From positions 2,074 to 66,073 of the forward strand of contig NZ_SJPX01000006.1 of NCBI RefSeq assembly GCF_007860175.1: 64,000 nt of DNA, read 5' to 3'. Under the pieces are notes generated by a model, which was given only the letters and a program-made list of their open reading frames with translations, was not told the DNA's origin and made no database searches. The position numbers and the translations under genes were made by a program. The stretch is from Rubripirellula reticaptiva. Its GTDB lineage: Bacteria; Planctomycetota; Planctomycetia; Pirellulales; Pirellulaceae. Each line of letters starts with the position of its first letter. The stretch's first letter is position 1. This document shows positions 1 to 6,284 of this stretch, piece after piece.

Positions 1-102
1 AACCGAATTAGTCGCGCCGCAATCGCACGTGCAAGTCCCGCCAGCCTGCGCGGGCGTCACAGAAACCGATTCGCCGCAAGTACAGATGATTGAGTAGGTC
101 AA
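1..102 (-). CDS. Cassette 4: cysteine-rich zinc-ribbon-like protein, N-terminal part
   Basis: The gene runs off the left edge; only about 34 codons are visible. The translation from the TTG at 102 contains ICTCGESV followed by AGGTCTCDCG. This spacing of CxCG pairs around a short linker resembles the small N-terminal zinc-ribbon-like leaders common in planctomycete hypothetical proteins. An in-frame stop lies shortly upstream, and the TTG at 102-100 is the only plausible start after the cassette border at 123. No Shine-Dalgarno site is seen. Function is unknown. It would be the fourth cassette from attI. Confidence 0.45.
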   Translation of the reverse strand, partial: MTYSIICTCGESVSVTPAQAGGTCTCDCGATNSV

Positions 103-117
103 CGTTCTATTTTCGTC

Positions 118-207
118 GGGTAACGCCTGCCGTCACCTTGCGGCCGCGATTAAGTTTGTGTTCAAAAACGCGTGTTTCGGCCGCTTAGGTGCACGGCATT
201 GTTCTGC
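118..207 (-). other. attC3, recombination site of cassette 3
   Basis: The outer cores are GGGTAAC at 118-124 and GTTCTGC at 201-207. The arms inside pair as an imperfect palindrome: the left arm from 118 to about 150 matches the reverse complement of about 175-207, including the GCGGCCG block. On the minus strand the site follows the stop of the cassette 3 gene at 239. Its GCAGAAC core complements the GTTCTGC core that opens the same cassette at 577-571. Confidence 0.75.
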
Positions 208-238
208 CTTTTGGCTTTCAAGTACGCGTCCGTCTCGC

Positions 239-568
239 TCAACCGTCATCGAGCAGTTTCCATGCGATTCTGTGTTCGTCATACTTTGGCACGGGAAAGT
301 TGATCTTCACCCGACGTCCACCGGGGGCTTGAACCGACCAGTTCGCTACAACAAATCCAGGGCCTGCATAGTTGTCACCCTCGGGCAGCAGGTCATTAGA
401 AGAGTCGAACAAACGGCGGACGCGGGGATGCAATTCATTTGATACGTATTCGCCGACGAAGCAGTCAGGTTGAAATTCACGAACATTGTAAATTTCGAAC
501 GTGAGATCATCACGCCAGTAGATGCGGTAAGGCTCAGAATGTTGCGTCAATGGATCATCTGGGTTCAC
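239..568 (-). CDS. Cassette 3: hypothetical protein, 109 aa
   Basis: The reading frame could be extended to a GTG at 640, but that part lies inside attC2. The cassette border (576) makes the GTG at 568 the likely start, giving MNPDDPLTQHSEPYRIYW at the N terminus. The product is soluble, rich in aromatic and charged residues, and ends with VPKYDEHRIAWKLLDDG. There is no signal peptide or membrane segment with this start. I do not recognise a family. It is followed by attC3 and sits as the third cassette from attI, so expression probably depends on a promoter near attI or within the array. Confidence 0.6.
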   Translation of the reverse strand: MNPDDPLTQHSEPYRIYWRDDLTFEIYNVREFQPDCFVGEYVSNELHPRVRRLFDSSNDLLPEGDNYAGPGFVVANWSVQAPGGRRVKINFPVPKYDEHRIAWKLLDDG

Positions 569-570
569 TG

Positions 571-663
571 GCAGAACGGTTCGGTTCAGCGGGTGGCGGG
601 AGTGCCCTTGCAAGCAAACGAAAACGGCGACCACCGCCACTCCGTTGCAACCGTTGGTTATCC
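571..663 (-). other. attC2, recombination site of cassette 2
   Basis: This site is 93 bp long, with cores GCAGAAC (571-577) and GTTATCC (657-663). The inner arms pair imperfectly: the left-arm block CGGTTCAGCGGGTGGCGG matches the complement of the block around 631-652. The right half is close in sequence to attC1. On the minus strand its first core overlaps the end of the cassette 2 gene (stop at 660-658). Confidence 0.8.
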
Positions 664-1026
664 GTCGTTTTCGGGGGAGTCAGGATCGGGAACAATGGGA
701 GCAGCAAGCCATTCCAACAGAGCGCCACCTTGGTAGGTTTCGATGCTATCGGAGTCGAATTGGCGCAGTTGGTCAAGTGCGGCGTCATTGCCATCACGTT
801 CAGACGTTTCTATCACGGCGGAGATAAACTGTTTTATCGCCCCAGAGTAGCGGATTGAGTTATCGAAAGAAGTGGCGAGCGTGCAATAGGCAGCAACAAT
901 TCCGCACGCAGCGAGTGTGAAGAGCGGTGCTGTCACGCGTCGAAGCCACGGCGTGTCGTTGGCCTCGCCAGCAACCCACCCGATTGCGAGCATCGCCGTC
1001 ACAATGAGGAATATTAGTGGTTGCAA
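658..1026 (-). CDS. Cassette 2: two-segment membrane protein, 122 aa
   Basis: The protein begins with a hydrophobic stretch (about residues 4-20, PLIFLIVTAMLAIGWVAG), then a short polar turn and a second hydrophobic stretch (about 32-50). A polar C-terminal half of about 70 residues ends in EWLAAPIVPDPDSPENDG. An in-frame TAG lies just before the TTG at 1026, so this TTG is the earliest start; GTG at 1002 and ATG at 993 are alternatives that would cut the first segment. It is likely a small inner-membrane protein with a soluble tail. The family is not recognised. The stop codon overlaps the first core of attC2, a tight packing typical of cassettes. Confidence 0.6.
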   Translation of the reverse strand: MQPLIFLIVTAMLAIGWVAGEANDTPWLRRVTAPLFTLAACGIVAAYCTLATSFDNSIRYSGAIKQFISAVIETSERDGNDAALDQLRQFDSDSIETYQGGALLEWLAAPIVPDPDSPENDG

Positions 1027-1062
1027 TGTTGTCTAGATATTCGTGGGTAGGGTCATTCAGTC

Positions 1063-1155
1063 GGATAACGGTAGGGTTTTGCGGGCGGCGGCGATTGACT
1101 TGCAAGCAGAAAAAAACGGCGACCACCGCCGCTCCGTAACAACCCATGGTTATCC
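1063..1155 (-). other. attC1, recombination site of cassette 1
   Basis: This site is 93 bp long, with cores GGATAAC (1063-1069) and GTTATCC (1149-1155). The left arm (GGTAGGGTTTTGCGGGCGGC and onward) pairs with the complement of the right arm (about 1123-1148) with few mismatches, leaving a loop around 1096-1116. It follows the stop of the cassette 1 gene on the minus strand. Its right half is nearly the same as that of attC2, so the two sites probably share an origin. Confidence 0.85.
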
Positions 1156-1167
1156 GTCAGCAAGAGG

Positions 1168-1602
1168 TCACGGATGGTCCGTCGTGAGTGCATACCGATC
1201 AACGATCTTGGTCGCGCGAACGATCACACCACGTTCGGTAATGTTCCCAGTGTCGATCCACTGCCAGTAATGTACCAATTCGTGTGCAAGAGAGTGAAGG
1301 TAGGATGCCAGGGCGTCGTCACGATCGCGTGTCGCGCTCGGCCTACGGTAGTCGCCAGTCGCGATCCGGATGTAGGGTTCAACGTTAGGTTGCCATGGAG
1401 CGAAAAACGTAGCGGACGCGGTTGTCCCGTGCATTGTCGTGAGTTCAGCGTGCGGCGAGAGGTAGACCGGACAACGAACGGGAAACGTGTAGGCAGTCCG
1501 AAGCCATCGCGAGAAGCGAACGATTGCGTCGCGAACGTCGGTTGAAGCACGGTGTCCGCGAATACGTAGTCCGCCTGTACGGTATGGCGTCGCCCACATC
1601 AT
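1168..1602 (-). CDS. Cassette 1: putative zinc metallopeptidase-like protein, 144 aa
   Basis: The C-terminal third contains AHELVHYWQW, an HExxH motif (about residues 107-111 from this start), the usual zinc-binding and catalytic helix of gluzincin- and SprT-like small peptidases. A third metal ligand is not obvious. There is no signal peptide or membrane segment, so a cytoplasmic protein is expected. The frame is open up to a GTG at 1674, but that stretch is attI sequence; the cassette begins at 1619, so ATG 1602 (or ATG 1599) is the start. It is the first cassette after attI and so the one most exposed to an attI-proximal promoter. Substrate is unknown. Confidence 0.65.
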   Translation of the reverse strand: MMWATPYRTGGLRIRGHRASTDVRDAIVRFSRWLRTAYTFPVRCPVYLSPHAELTTMHGTTASATFFAPWQPNVEPYIRIATGDYRRPSATRDRDDALASYLHSLAHELVHYWQWIDTGNITERGVIVRATKIVDRYALTTDHP

Positions 1603-1613
1603 GTGCTTCAATC

Positions 1614-1765
1614 GGATAACTTGTTTCTCACCTGTTGAGGTGAGTGTTAATACCGTGATTTGACTTGTTATCACGTGTTGGACCTTCGGTACCGTGGGGG
1701 GCGGGCAGACTTATTATCACCTGACGAGCTCTCGGTACCGGGTTGGTCATGGGCTTATTATCACC
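1614..1765 (-). other. attI-like primary integration site with iterated integrase motifs
   Basis: On the minus strand the junction reads GTGAGAAACAAG then TTATCC (core 1620-1614), very like the AAACAAAGTTAGGC crossover of attI1. Three more copies of the same motif stand upstream: GTGATAACAAG (1674-1664), GTGATAATAAG (1720-1710) and GTGATAATAAG (1764-1754). The spacing is 44, 46 and 44 bp, and GGTACCG boxes at 1686-1694 and 1732-1740 sit between them. Known attI sites carry a crossover box plus extra integrase-binding direct repeats; here the repeats are unusually many and regularly spaced. Confidence 0.75.
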
Positions 1766-1785
1766 GGTTCTGGTGGGGGATGCAA
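1757..1785 (-). promoter_or_regulatory. Candidate cassette promoter (Pc)
   Basis: On the minus strand TTGCAT (1785-1780), a 17-bp spacer and GATAAT (1762-1757) form a sigma70-like promoter directed into the first cassette. The -10 box overlaps the outermost attI repeat, so integrase binding could block it. The call rests on motif match and position only. Confidence 0.4.
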
Positions 1786-2182
1786 TCACATAATGCTGGG
1801 GTCCCCTGCTTCGGTTCGGGAATTGAGGCGACAAGGTGGTGAGGGCGTTTCGGGGAATGGGCGGGATCGATGCTGGGTGGATTGGTTGTGAGTTCACTTG
1901 CTCGCGCATCGTGCCTGAAATGCCGCATCTGGCTTGCAATGACCCTGTATTGCTTGTGACTGCTTGCTCGGTGTTTCTGGCTTCCGAGGTCGCTGTTTAT
2001 CCCGTGGCGCTGTTGCGACCCTCCCGCGGACTGGTGTACGTTAATGCAGTGGTTCGGCGTGCATATGACTGAGATGTAGACGGCCGGGCGAATTGCAAGA
2101 AACGCTGTTTGTTGTTGGCGGGCTGGTTGGCGTGATCGCTGGTTGCCGCCTTGGTGAACGTTAGGGCAAGGGAGCGGCGAAC
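1786..2182. other. Intergenic region between attI and intI
   Basis: This 397-bp stretch carries no convincing gene. It should hold the intI promoter and 5' leader. The intI ATG at 2183 is preceded by AAGGGAGCGGCGAAC, a weak purine-rich ribosome-binding site. I do not see a clear -35/-10 pair for intI or a LexA-type operator. Confidence 0.5.
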
Positions 2183-3715
2183 ATGTCAATGTTTGAAAAG
2201 CCATCGCAACAAGAGCAGGAATTGAAGTGGGCCAAGATTTGGTTCAAGCAGTTCAGCCACTTTCACAAGCGCAGCGGTAAGCCGAATTGGGATTTTTCAC
2301 CCGACGATGTGATCCTGTTTTTGCAATCCAAACGTGACCAGCGGATGCCGGCATGGAAACGCATGAAGATCCTGAAGGGGCTGATGGTCTATCGTCGGTT
2401 TGAACAAGAGTTGCCGATCGATCCGTTCTCTTTCATCGTTGAAAAGATGAAAGAAATCGTTGCTAACGAACGAGCAAAGCAAGACGGCTATGACACGATC
2501 GAGGATGTGGTTGGCAAGATTGATCCGAAGGAACCGGATGCAATTCAGCAATTCAGACGGGCCCTCCGCAAGGATGGCATGCGGTTGCAGACGGAGCGTT
2601 CGTATGTCGCCAAAGTAAAAGCGTTCATGGCGGATCGCGGCCTGAGTTGCTTGGCCGATTTTGCGACAGTGGGGGCGTCAGATGTCGAGGCTCATTTGAC
2701 GGATCTTGCTGTCGATGGCAACGTCGCCCCGTCGACGCAGAACACTGCGTTCCACGGCTTGCTGAAGTTCTTCACTTTGGTGCTGAAGCGTGACATGGGG
2801 CCGATCGAAGCGATCCGCGCGAGCAAAGGTAAACAGGTCCCGACGGTGATGAGCACTCGCGAGGTGGCTTTGGTTTTCGACGGACTGGAGGGACTTCATT
2901 TAACGATCGCTCAGTTGTTGTACGGATGCGGTATGCGGATCAGTGAGGCGATTCGATTGCGAGTGAAAGACATCGACTTTGACAATGGGTTGATTGAGAT
3001 CCACGGAGCAAAGGGGAACAAGAGTCGTTTGGTGCCGTTGCCAGCGGAGCTTGCCGAACCGTTGCGACGATACGTTGAGTCTCGGCGGGCGCTTCATGAG
3101 CATGACTTAGCGAATGGTACGGCGTCGGTATGGTTGCCACACGCACTGCATCGCAAGTATCCGACGGCTCATCGTGAGTTTCGCTGGCAGTACTTGTTTG
3201 CTTCGCATCGATTGTCGCGTGACCCGCGAACCGGCGATCGTCACCGACACCATCTGCACTACGAAACGTTCCCGCGACATTTGAAAGTGGCGGTTGACCA
3301 GGCGGGCATCGACAAGCACGTGACTAGCCATACGTTTCGGCACTGCTTCGCAACTCATTTGTTGTGGACGGGCACGGACATCCGGGCAGTGCAAGAGTTG
3401 CTAGGGCACAGCGATGTCAAGACAACGATGATCTACACGCATGTCATGAACCGACCCGGCGTGCGAGTGGTTAGCCCGCTGGATCGATTGACGGGTGACG
3501 CGAATCGGCGGCGTGTTGATGCAGGGCCTAGCGAAGCAGGGCCTAGCGAAGCAGGGTTCGGCGATTCAGGGTTCGGCGATTCAGGGCGAGGCGATGCGGG
3601 ACGTAACGAGTTTGCGAAAGACGAATTTGCCAGTTACGGCCAAGCGGGCGACGTCCAAGCAGGTGACGATTCGAATGGTGTTCGTGAGACGCCGTCGAAT
3701 TATTTGGTTCGCTGA
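2183..3715 (+). CDS. intI: Integron integrase IntI (tyrosine recombinase), 510 aa
   Basis: The protein catalyses attI x attC and attC x attC exchange to insert and excise cassettes. The tyrosine recombinase residues are visible: R252 (GCGMRISEA), K277 (HGAKGNK), H383 and R386 (SHTFRHCFATHLL), H409 (LLGHSDVKTT) and Y418 (MIYTHV). The integron-specific insert between patches II and III is clear at about 316-345 (WLPHALHRKYP...FRWQYLFASH), which separates IntI from XerCD. At 510 aa it is well above the usual 320-340. There is an extra N-terminal helical region of about 115 residues before the SAM-like core-binding domain, and a C-terminal low-complexity tail of about 70 residues (GPSEA/GFGDS repeats). 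It is divergent from the cassettes. Confidence 0.93.
   Translation: MSMFEKPSQQEQELKWAKIWFKQFSHFHKRSGKPNWDFSPDDVILFLQSKRDQRMPAWKRMKILKGLMVYRRFEQELPIDPFSFIVEKMKEIVANERAKQDGYDTIEDVVGKIDPKEPDAIQQFRRALRKDGMRLQTERSYVAKVKAFMADRGLSCLADFATVGASDVEAHLTDLAVDGNVAPSTQNTAFHGLLKFFTLVLKRDMGPIEAIRASKGKQVPTVMSTREVALVFDGLEGLHLTIAQLLYGCGMRISEAIRLRVKDIDFDNGLIEIHGAKGNKSRLVPLPAELAEPLRRYVESRRALHEHDLANGTASVWLPHALHRKYPTAHREFRWQYLFASHRLSRDPRTGDRHRHHLHYETFPRHLKVAVDQAGIDKHVTSHTFRHCFATHLLWTGTDIRAVQELLGHSDVKTTMIYTHVMNRPGVRVVSPLDRLTGDANRRRVDAGPSEAGPSEAGFGDSGFGDSGRGDAGRNEFAKDEFASYGQAGDVQAGDDSNGVRETPSNYLVR
3521..3595 (+). repeat. Five 15-bp tandem units inside intI
   Basis: Units start at 3521, 3536, 3551, 3566 and 3581. The first two are identical (GCAGGGCCTAGCGAA); the others differ by substitutions. 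They keep frame and encode the pentapeptides AGPSE, AGPSE, AGFGD, SGFGD and SGRGD in the C-terminal tail, outside the catalytic domain. Such units can change in copy number by slippage. Confidence 0.8.
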
Positions 3716-3897
3716 CAAGGATGGGGGGCAAGCCCGATCAATTTCGTGTTTCGGCTTTCAAAAGCAAATTGTGCGAGTTGACCAGTGATGAGAATGCCCC
3801 GCGTGGCTCGCCTTCGTGTTTTAAGGAAGACCTGAGCGTAAGCGAGGGAAGGGGTCAAGTGACCGGCTATCTCCTCGCATAGACGCGACTCTCCCAA

Positions 3898-4100
3898 GGG
3901 CATTGGTATCTACACAACTAATCTTAACCCTCCTTGGGGAGGGTCGGATCCGAGGTACGAGGTTTCGGGGAGGGGATCCGCGACGGACGAAGACTTCCCA
4001 TCTTGCCAGACGCCCCTCCCCGCGTCGTCGCAAGCTCCTCCGCGACCCTCCCAAGGGAGGGTGGATTCAATTCGTCAGACTTGTGTAGATACCAATGCCC
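3898..4100. mobile_element. MITE-like element with 20-bp terminal inverted repeats
   Basis: GGGCATTGGTATCTACACAA at 3898-3917 is the exact reverse complement of 4081-4100. Inside, a second imperfect pair (around 3926-3948 and 4040-4068, ACCCTCC..GGAGGGT blocks) extends the hairpin potential. The element is 203 bp, codes for nothing convincing, and carries no transposase, as expected of a non-autonomous miniature element. I cannot see a confident target-site duplication. Confidence 0.65.
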
Positions 4101-4186
4101 GAGGGAGAGTGAATTTACATTCGTAAAATACGGTCCGGACTCAATGCGCTAAACCGAACGTTCTCTTACGTGTTGGCGGCTGACGG

Positions 4187-4213
4187 GTCGAAAGTCTCGA
4201 CGTGTTTCGCTAC
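4187..4213. repeat. Short dispersed palindromic repeat, copy 1
   Basis: GTCGAAAGTCTCGACGTGTT and the following TCGCTAC resemble the copy at 29038-29066 (GTAGCGAAAGTCTCGACGAG, then TGTCGCTGC). Both lie between genes and can form small hairpins. They are likely members of a dispersed intergenic repeat family. Confidence 0.45.
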
Positions 4214-4249
4214 GACAGCGTTGTGCGAGACGTTGGCGTCTGACGCATC

Positions 4250-4762
4250 CTAGGTGTCGCCGGTTAGCTTTTGGTTGAGGCGTAGGAGTTCGAGAACAGC
4301 TTCGGCGGTTTCGACTCCTTTGTTGCCAACTTTTCCGCCGGCGCGGGCTTTGGCTTGGTCGAGGGTGTTGCAGGTGAGGAGACCGAAGCCGATCGGTAGT
4401 CCACTTTCGACACCTAGATCCATCAGCGCGCTGCTGACGGATCGGTTGATGTGTTCGTCGTGGGTGGTTTCACCTTTGATGACGCATCCTAATGCGATCA
4501 CGGCGACGACGTCATCATCATCAACGACGGTTCGTGCGACGGTTGGGAGTTCCCATGCGCCGGGGACTCGAACGATTGGCGTTAGGTGTTCAGGGTATCC
4601 TGCGTCGCGGATCGTTTTGACAGCACCATCAACGAGGGCGTCGCAAATTTCGCCGTTGTAGCGACTCGCTACGATGACGACTTTGCCTTCGGGTAGATCA
4701 CCTTCGATACCAGTAATCTCGCCTTCGCGTGCGGCAGAAGCTGGCATTTTATCAGTCGACAT
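4250..4762 (-). CDS. ribH: 6,7-dimethyl-8-ribityllumazine synthase, 170 aa
   Basis: Condenses 5-amino-6-ribitylamino-uracil with 3,4-dihydroxy-2-butanone 4-phosphate to give lumazine, the penultimate step of riboflavin synthesis. Family motifs are present in order: SRYNGEI (about 33-39), VPGAWELP (66-73), [14 protein letters not shown] (91-104, with the conserved catalytic-region H101) and [11 protein letters not shown] (127-137). Length is normal with a short N-terminal extension. Its ATG lies inside the end of rho (11-bp overlap), so the two are probably co-transcribed and coupled. No riboswitch is seen upstream, as expected within an operon. Confidence 0.95.
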
Positions 4763-6284
4763 CTTTTTGGCTCAGTAAGAATTCAGCGTTGTTTTGGGTT
4801 TTACACAGACCCGTAATCAGAGTTTTCATCGCATCAGCAGGTGACATTTCGGCGAGTGCACGACGAAGGTTCGATACTCGGCGATATTCGTCGGGATCCA
4901 TCAGCATTTCTTCGCGGCGAGTGCCACTGCTGCTGATATCGATCGCCGGCCAGATTCGCCGGTCCACGAGTTCTCGGTCGAGGACGATCTCGAGATTTCC
5001 GGTGCCTTTGAATTCTTCGAAGATAACATCGTCCATGCGGCTGCCGGTGTCGACCAGCGCGGTGGCGAGGATCGTTAACGAGCCACCTTCTTCGACCTTG
5101 CGGGCCGACCCGAAGAGGGCTTTGGGTTTTTGCAGTGCGCCGGCGTCGAGACCGCCCGTCAACAACTTGCCGGTTGATTCACCGTCGGAGTTGTGGGCAC
5201 GGGCTAGCCGTGTGATGGAGTCGAGGAAGATTACGACGTCGGTACCCGATTCAACCATCCGTTTGGCTTTTTCGATGACCATCTGGGCGACTTGGATGTG
5301 TCGCTGGGCTGGTTCATCGAACGTGCTGCTGATGACTTCGCATTGTGGGCCGCGGATTTCGCGCTTCATGTCCGTCACTTCTTCTGGACGTTCGTCGATC
5401 AGAAGAATGAAGGTGTAGGCGTCGGGATAGTTTTTCAGAACGGCCCGCGCCATCTGTTGCATCAAGATCGTCTTGCCCGCACGCGGAGGGCTGACGATCA
5501 GTCCGCGCTGTCCGAACCCGATCGGCGTCAGCATGTCGACGACGCGTGTCGACATTTCGGCCGCATCGTGTTCCATGATGATGCGCGAGTTGGGATGGAG
5601 CGGCGTGAGTTCTTCGAACGGAATCGCCTTTCCTCGCGCCGACGGGTCGAGGCGATTGATGGCCTCGATTCGCAAGAGCGCAAAGTAGCGTTCGTTTTCT
5701 TTTGGCGGACGAATTTGCCCTGCCACGTGAGAACCGGTCTGCAAACCGAAACGCCGGATCTGGCTTGGTGAAACGTAGATGTCGTCGGGACAGGACAAGT
5801 AGTGGTACAGCGGTGAACGGAGAAACCCGAATCCATCGGGAAGGATTTCGAGGGTACCTTCGCCGTACATCAAGCCATTCGCTTTCATGCGATGCTTGAG
5901 GATTTGGAAGATCAGTTGTTGACGCGACGTGATATGGCCGTCGGTGTCAGTATCGGTGTCGGAAACAGGCAGGCCGTCGGCGCGTGCGAGTTCAATCAGA
6001 GTTTCGAGCGACGAGTTCTGGAGATCCGAGATGCTCCAGACAGCTTGCGTGTTGTTTGTCGTTGGGATGCCAACACGCTTTCCAGCTTTGTTTGCTTCGC
6101 TGACGATTTCTTCGGGTAGTGACAGCGGATCACGTTCGGCGTCGAGTTCGCGTATCCGTTGGTCGACTTCTTTATCGGGATGCCGCGGACCGCTTTGCGA
6201 TCGCCGGTAGTCACGATACTCGCGCGGACCAGTCTTGCGATTCGGTCCGGAATTGTCCCTGGAGGGATGCCGGTTAGGAGCCAT
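4752..6284 (-). CDS. rho: Transcription termination factor Rho, 510 aa
   Basis: RNA-dependent hexameric ATPase and helicase that releases RNA polymerase from transcripts. Visible parts are a basic, Arg/Pro-rich N-terminal extension of about 60 residues, a Rho N-terminal helix region, the RNA-binding cold-shock-like domain ([18 protein letters not shown]), and the RecA-like ATPase with the P-loop PRAGKT and the downstream [15 protein letters not shown] and [12 protein letters not shown]. The frame is open to an ATG at 6392, adding 36 low-complexity residues. I chose the ATG at 6284 ([10 protein letters not shown]) because the upstream part is Pro/Ser/Phe-rich and unlike Rho. It lies between coaE and ribH in one leftward cluster. 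Confidence 0.93.

Follow-up and report, generated by a model that had tools for sequence, protein, structure and literature searches.

An integron integrase and cassette array on the chromosome of Rubripirellula reticaptiva, with further attC arrays elsewhere in the genome

The DNA analysed here (the window) is a stretch of 64,000 nucleotides from the planctomycete Rubripirellula reticaptiva, family Pirellulaceae (contig NZ_SJPX01000006.1, C6 below, positions 2,074 to 66,073), and its left end holds the parts of an integron: an integrase gene (intI), an attI site, and gene cassettes with their attC sites. The intI gene occupies window positions 2183..3715 on the forward strand and encodes 510 amino acids. 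To its left, on the reverse strand, attI lies at about 1614..1765. The attI core reads AAC|TTGTTTCTCACC at 1618, with the crossover between 1620 and 1619, and is accompanied by repeats at 1621, about 1664, 1710 and 1754, of which those at 1710 and 1754 read CTTATTATCACC. Exact copies of this core occur at two loci of G021 and one of G002, and a more diverged form in G001, all of them other genomes of the genus; the site is conserved in these relatives while the cassette side differs.

Three complete cassettes follow attI, all on the reverse strand. Cassette 1 (1069..1619, 551 bp) carries an open reading frame (ORF) at 1168-1611 and has its attC at 1063..1155, which scores 86.1 bits with a covariance model. 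Cassette 2 (577..1068, ORF 658-1026) and cassette 3 (124..576, ORF 239-568) have attC sites at 571..663 (63.1 bits) and 118..207 (54.1 bits). Positions 1..123 hold the start of a fourth cassette, also on the reverse strand, which is interrupted by a scaffold gap of 100 N adjoining the window on the left. Outside the three attC sites, the best covariance-model match in the window reaches 18.4 bits (E 0.079). The cassette genes point leftward and intI rightward, which is the usual divergent layout. A sequence-only reading had proposed an IntI with its diagnostic insert, an adjoining attI-like site, and three attC sites flanking complete cassettes of unknown proteins, with 7-base cores that are exact complements at both ends; each of these elements is borne out. 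The core pairs are GTTATCC/GGATAAC, GTTATCC/GGATAAC and GTTCTGC/GCAGAAC, and none of the three cassette proteins matches Pfam or NCBIfam. The cassette 1 protein contains HELVHYWQW, which resembles a zinc metallopeptidase motif.

The integrase assignment is based on a score of 433.8 bits with TIGR02249 (integron integrase; cut-off 265) and on the closest solved relative, IntI4 (2a3v, E 2.5e-65), whose alignment runs through the integron-specific insert. The reading frame is intact and holds R252, K277, H383, R386, H409 and Y418, which are taken here to be the catalytic residues, as in the family. In addition, residues 9-100 (window 2207..2482) form an extra N-terminal helical domain, modelled with a predicted local distance difference test (pLDDT) score of 76-95 and 81-96 in two models (residues 11-100). 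A structure search with this domain returns tyrosine recombinases at ranks 1-34, VIA-align comparison with the PDB matches adds support, and hhalign relates it to the core-binding domain (E 6e-5, probability 65). Because of these three results, the domain is read as resembling a second core-binding domain; no hit of a Foldseek search limited to the N-terminal domain had E below 0.001. The domain may bind att DNA, and it raises a testable question: does it bind the attI repeats, or does it alter site choice? Within the open-access literature searched, no integron integrase was found described with an extra core-binding domain. The C-terminus (window 3530-3712) is a repetitive tail of GPSEA, GFGDS and similar units, predicted to be disordered and absent from the aligned relatives. 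Just 3' of intI, window 3924-3977 gives a weak match to the whalefall-1 RNA (30.3 bits, gathering threshold 37), and part of the intergenic region holding it recurs in G021.

The covariance model for attC rests on 38 of the 41 seed pairs that had been selected for matching 7-base cores. Consequently, its seven core pairs are no evidence of structure and only the other 16 pairs count, 14 of which show two-sided changes that preserve pairing. The site is an imperfect palindrome with paired R and L boxes and two consistently unpaired bases. The model found no match at E up to 0.01 in the negative control (window 5000-64000 and loci L016 and L028), and no Rfam family matched attC in window 1-5400 and seven array loci. 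That Rfam search returned one group II intron at gathering level, to which a permissive search added the sub-gathering whalefall-1 match. The canonical core is rarely seen: RYYYAAC occurs in 1 of 280 sites and GTTRRRY likewise in 1 of 280, so the core is a variant of the consensus, with A or C following GTT in the core types listed.

The genome contains at least 280 attC sites (E up to 2e-5; 99 + 79 + 102 in the stretches examined). The largest array, B, has a main part with 164 sites at C3:403434-498067 and a further part with seven at C3:507418-511946. Another 42 sites lie in an array reaching the contig end (C3:1162514-1192852), seven beside a second intI (C3:77276-80334), seven on C6, and 21, 8, 10, 8 and 6 on contigs C7, C9, C10, C11 and C12, respectively. 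The array spans total 163 kb, or 2.08% of the genome. All of the best 150 candidates of a whole-genome search fall within these places, and 280 is therefore treated as a lower bound. A sedentary chromosomal integron has over 10 attC sites on a chromosome with one intI; here the three attC sites of the window extend to the scaffold gap, and the remainder of the same array is connected by contig ends only; the right end of C3 and contigs C7 and C9-C12 would be parts of it. The gap (C6:1974-2073), at which the window begins, lies 117 bp past the attC of cassette 3. Beyond it, the next four attC sites (C6:32-1856, within C6:1-1973) are reversed in orientation, and a 205-bp stretch is an 88% mirror image of window 1-204, such that window 1-123 and C6:1769-2073 are related cassette ends placed head to head. 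Given the flipped orientation and the mirrored stretch, this join probably results from misassembly at a cassette that is repeated, and the order beyond the gap is unsafe. A similar orientation flip occurs at the gap at C3:409388.

Further elements were observed in these arrays. The second intI (C3:75243-76711, locus L019) has a 369-amino-acid frame, lacks most of the N-terminal extension and adjoins the seven attC sites; beside it (C3:75.2 kb) lies a fragment of a window-type intI containing stops. In array B, one attC is split by a group II intron with a 500-amino-acid ORF resembling a reverse transcriptase (L014:14999-17041; C3 about 490.0-492.0 kb). Group IIC-attC introns are known group II introns located in attC. 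The likeness of the array B intron to those mentioned in the available text of PMC8876359 is its position inside the site.

Because the cores are variable, the borders and mobility of the cassettes can be tested without an assay, which is not possible in arrays with uniform cores. If a cassette moves as a circle, its 5' end has to complement the R'' box that it carries itself, whatever lies next to it. Among 245 cassettes with readable cores, a cassette's own ends are complementary at all four variable bases in 231 and at three or more in 242. The two halves of one site in place reach four of four in 39, and 2000 shuffled pairings give 30 on average and 46 at most. The own end fits better than the in-place half in 202 cassettes, the reverse holds in three, and 40 are ties. 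The corresponding figures are 63/89 against 15/89 in G002 (shuffle mean 7.9, maximum 19) and 43/44 against 11/44 in parts of G001, G003 and G021 (shuffle mean 8.3, maximum 16). By this rule, the cassettes appear to be mobile as circular single units.

Shared cassettes give a second view of movement. Cassette 1 is identical over its 551 bp to a cassette at C10:1638-2188, which follows an attC and not attI. Array B also has identical cassettes in common with C7 and with the small array at C3:77 kb. Between species, 15 of 221 gene cassettes match the examined parts of G021 at 80% or more of both length and identity; nine of these are at least 95% identical, three of them 100% over 505, 614 and 632 bp, while the ribH-rho region of the two genomes is 75% identical. 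These graded identities argue against cross-contamination. In 13 within-genome and 10 between-species pairs, similarity stops 0-6 bases from the cassette edges, with the exception of two right edges (runs of 9 and 13).

A sense ORF of at least 60 amino acids is present in 211 of 246 units, and 194 of the 246 are singletons at the nucleotide level. Few of the 192 distinct cassette proteins match Pfam or PADLOC. The matches include GNAT, HNH, ankyrin, SMI1/KNR4 and Imm53 immunity proteins, phosphatases and a glyoxalase. Defence genes were considered as the main cargo and rejected, since PADLOC matches are few. A distinct family, 25 of the 246 cassettes (402-457 bp), has no conserved ORF; a coding reading of it was dismissed on the absence of codon periodicity in the 402-bp copies and on shared stops in all six frames. 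In each of the 20 distinct copies, TTG[CT]NN and TA[GAC][AG][CT]T lie exactly 17 bases apart, a distance fixed in the search pattern, with a varying spacer; the hexamers fit the Escherichia coli consensus only moderately. A reading of these cassettes as structured RNA is conceivable: for 30 of the 59 distinct sequences, comparison with 40 column shuffles puts the consensus folding energy at a z of about -3.5. The examined parts of G021 hold 52 full-length copies and ten matches to the 3' module only, nine of which begin at the first box. Since gene-less cassettes with promoter activity are known in Vibrio, this family with its promoter-like module and predicted activity probably belongs to the same kind.

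Comparison with relatives shows that integrons are widespread and their location is not conserved. Of 22 genomes of the genus, counting this one, at least 19 have attC matches (best 150 candidates) and 12 have intI at E up to 1e-60. In the family, attC matches at E up to 1e-6 were found in 102 of 119 genomes and 48 of 55 genera, and 17 of 119 genomes had none at that threshold; at most 36 candidates per genome were scored, so these figures describe presence and not counts. G021 holds at least 518 sites: 296, 187 (of 190 listed matches) and 35 in loci L153, L154, L155 and L176. G002, a single contig, holds 145 sites, which fall into 19 clusters, five of these being single sites. It has two intI platforms that share 99.4% identity across 1459 bp. 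Partial copies are present at two additional loci, and three loci have one and the same degraded intI of the window type; platforms seem duplicated around its chromosome (G002:C1, about 0.19, 1.92, 2.97 and 4.31 Mb). Two outcomes had been named as speaking against an integron at this locus, namely no further attC to the left and the same four genes in the same order in all relatives. The genome has the 280 sites described, and the locus varies. The ribH-rho block flanking this intI is present in all eight relatives searched, on another contig than intI or at least 65 kb away; none of the genes flanking this intI lies in the stretches examined around intI of G001, G002, G003 and G021; and cassettes 2-3 (window 208-1060) match four other genomes of the genus only around attC.

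The left end of the window almost certainly belongs to a chromosomal integron and is the part of its large cassette store nearest to intI. A circular cassette would offer its attC as a folded single strand, and IntI would recombine it with attI, which is double-stranded, between 1620 and 1619. Cassettes would be inserted singly at the G^TT of attI, with genes reading leftward away from intI, and recombination between attC sites would excise and shuffle them. The several arrays of the genome share cassettes. That this IntI performs the recombination, and does so at present, is suggested by sequence. Several observations weigh against this picture. In the stretches examined no intI accompanies the largest array (C3:403-512 kb, 171 sites), a candidate CALIN (attC cluster lacking intI) that contains three N gaps, and array order depends on a scaffold with gaps and flipped joins. 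A scan of 1560-2260 for sigma70-type promoters and terminators found none, and neither the cassette promoter (Pc) nor the intI promoter was located. Fourteen of the 245 cassettes miss the four-base match, in-place halves fit better in three, and the match is weaker in G002.

An improbable alternative is that a past integron built the arrays and is now inactive, its cassettes frozen. This agrees with the sequence-based nature of the case and with degraded intI copies in G002 and in this genome (C3:75.2 kb, with internal stops), but the intI frame is intact with its catalytic residues, cassette 1, at attI, is identical to the C10 copy, and three cassettes are 100% identical to G021 against 75% for the ribH-rho region. 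Spread of copies between arrays by ordinary homologous recombination is very unlikely: the attC sites are similar enough to serve partly as homology, yet similarity ends within 0-6 bases of the edges in the 23 pairs, apart from the two right edges, and the own-end rule requires circular units. It is scarcely credible that the array size is an assembly artefact, since single-contig G002 has its 145 sites in 19 clusters and 194 of 246 cassettes are singletons, even if gaps and flipped joins fall in repeats and several contigs end in a gene-less cassette. Least probable of all, to the point of being negligible, is that the repeats are another dispersed repeat or a structured RNA. Their cores do not fit GTTRRRY, but the stem is conserved with two consistently unpaired bases, sense ORFs occupy most units, the repeats adjoin intI and attI, the own-end rule holds and no Rfam family matched them in window 1-5400 and the seven array loci.

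A broader proposal extends the integron reading to the whole family and is put forward tentatively, as a possibility that is less likely than not. Pirellulaceae may have their own integron lineage of Vibrio scale with linked departures: an integrase with two core-binding domains; attI repeats about 45 bp apart, possibly read by the extra domain; cores no longer bound to RRRY, each cassette having a four-base core of its own; and several platforms per chromosome sharing one cassette pool, which mobile promoter cassettes would activate and which would pass from one species to another.

By 2008 integrons had been noted in Planctomycetes, with Planctomycetes and Rhodopirellula baltica listed among integron hosts in the available parts of the sources, and an attC model for the phylum was published by Ghaly and co-workers (2021; PMC8352920, available text), likewise for attC of planctomycete chromosomes. 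The claim that planctomycete integrons are seldom annotated therefore stands in part: three relatives of this IntI are named XerC or XerD in public records, but the integrons themselves were known and had a model. In a 2022 survey that used a standard tool, 93% of complete integrons fell in gamma-Proteobacteria (PMC9024848, available text). No description of planctomycete arrays this large was found in the open-access literature. Since 102 of 119 genomes searched in one planctomycete family have this attC type, and two genomes reach at least 280 and 518 sites, estimates of the cassette reservoir beyond Proteobacteria may be too low.

Among known systems, the integron-like tyrosine recombinases of PMC8138268 share with this IntI the core-binding and catalytic domains with the integron-specific insert; in the available text, integron integrases belong to the simple recombinases, which lack an additional N-terminal domain, whereas residues 9-100 form one here. 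The gene-less promoter cassettes of Vibrio (PMC11014356, available text) likewise lack a gene, lie inside arrays and have promoter-like boxes on the sense strand; here a single family makes up 25 copies, and 52 in G021, with a promoter that is only predicted. The sedentary chromosomal integrons (superintegrons) of Vibrio share intI, attI, long arrays of mostly unknown genes and gene-less cassettes. The present system differs in having several arrays and more than one intI in a genome, in its highly variable cores and in the extra integrase domain, and its lower bounds of 280 and 518 sites compare with up to 301 for V. vulnificus in the available text of PMC11023631.
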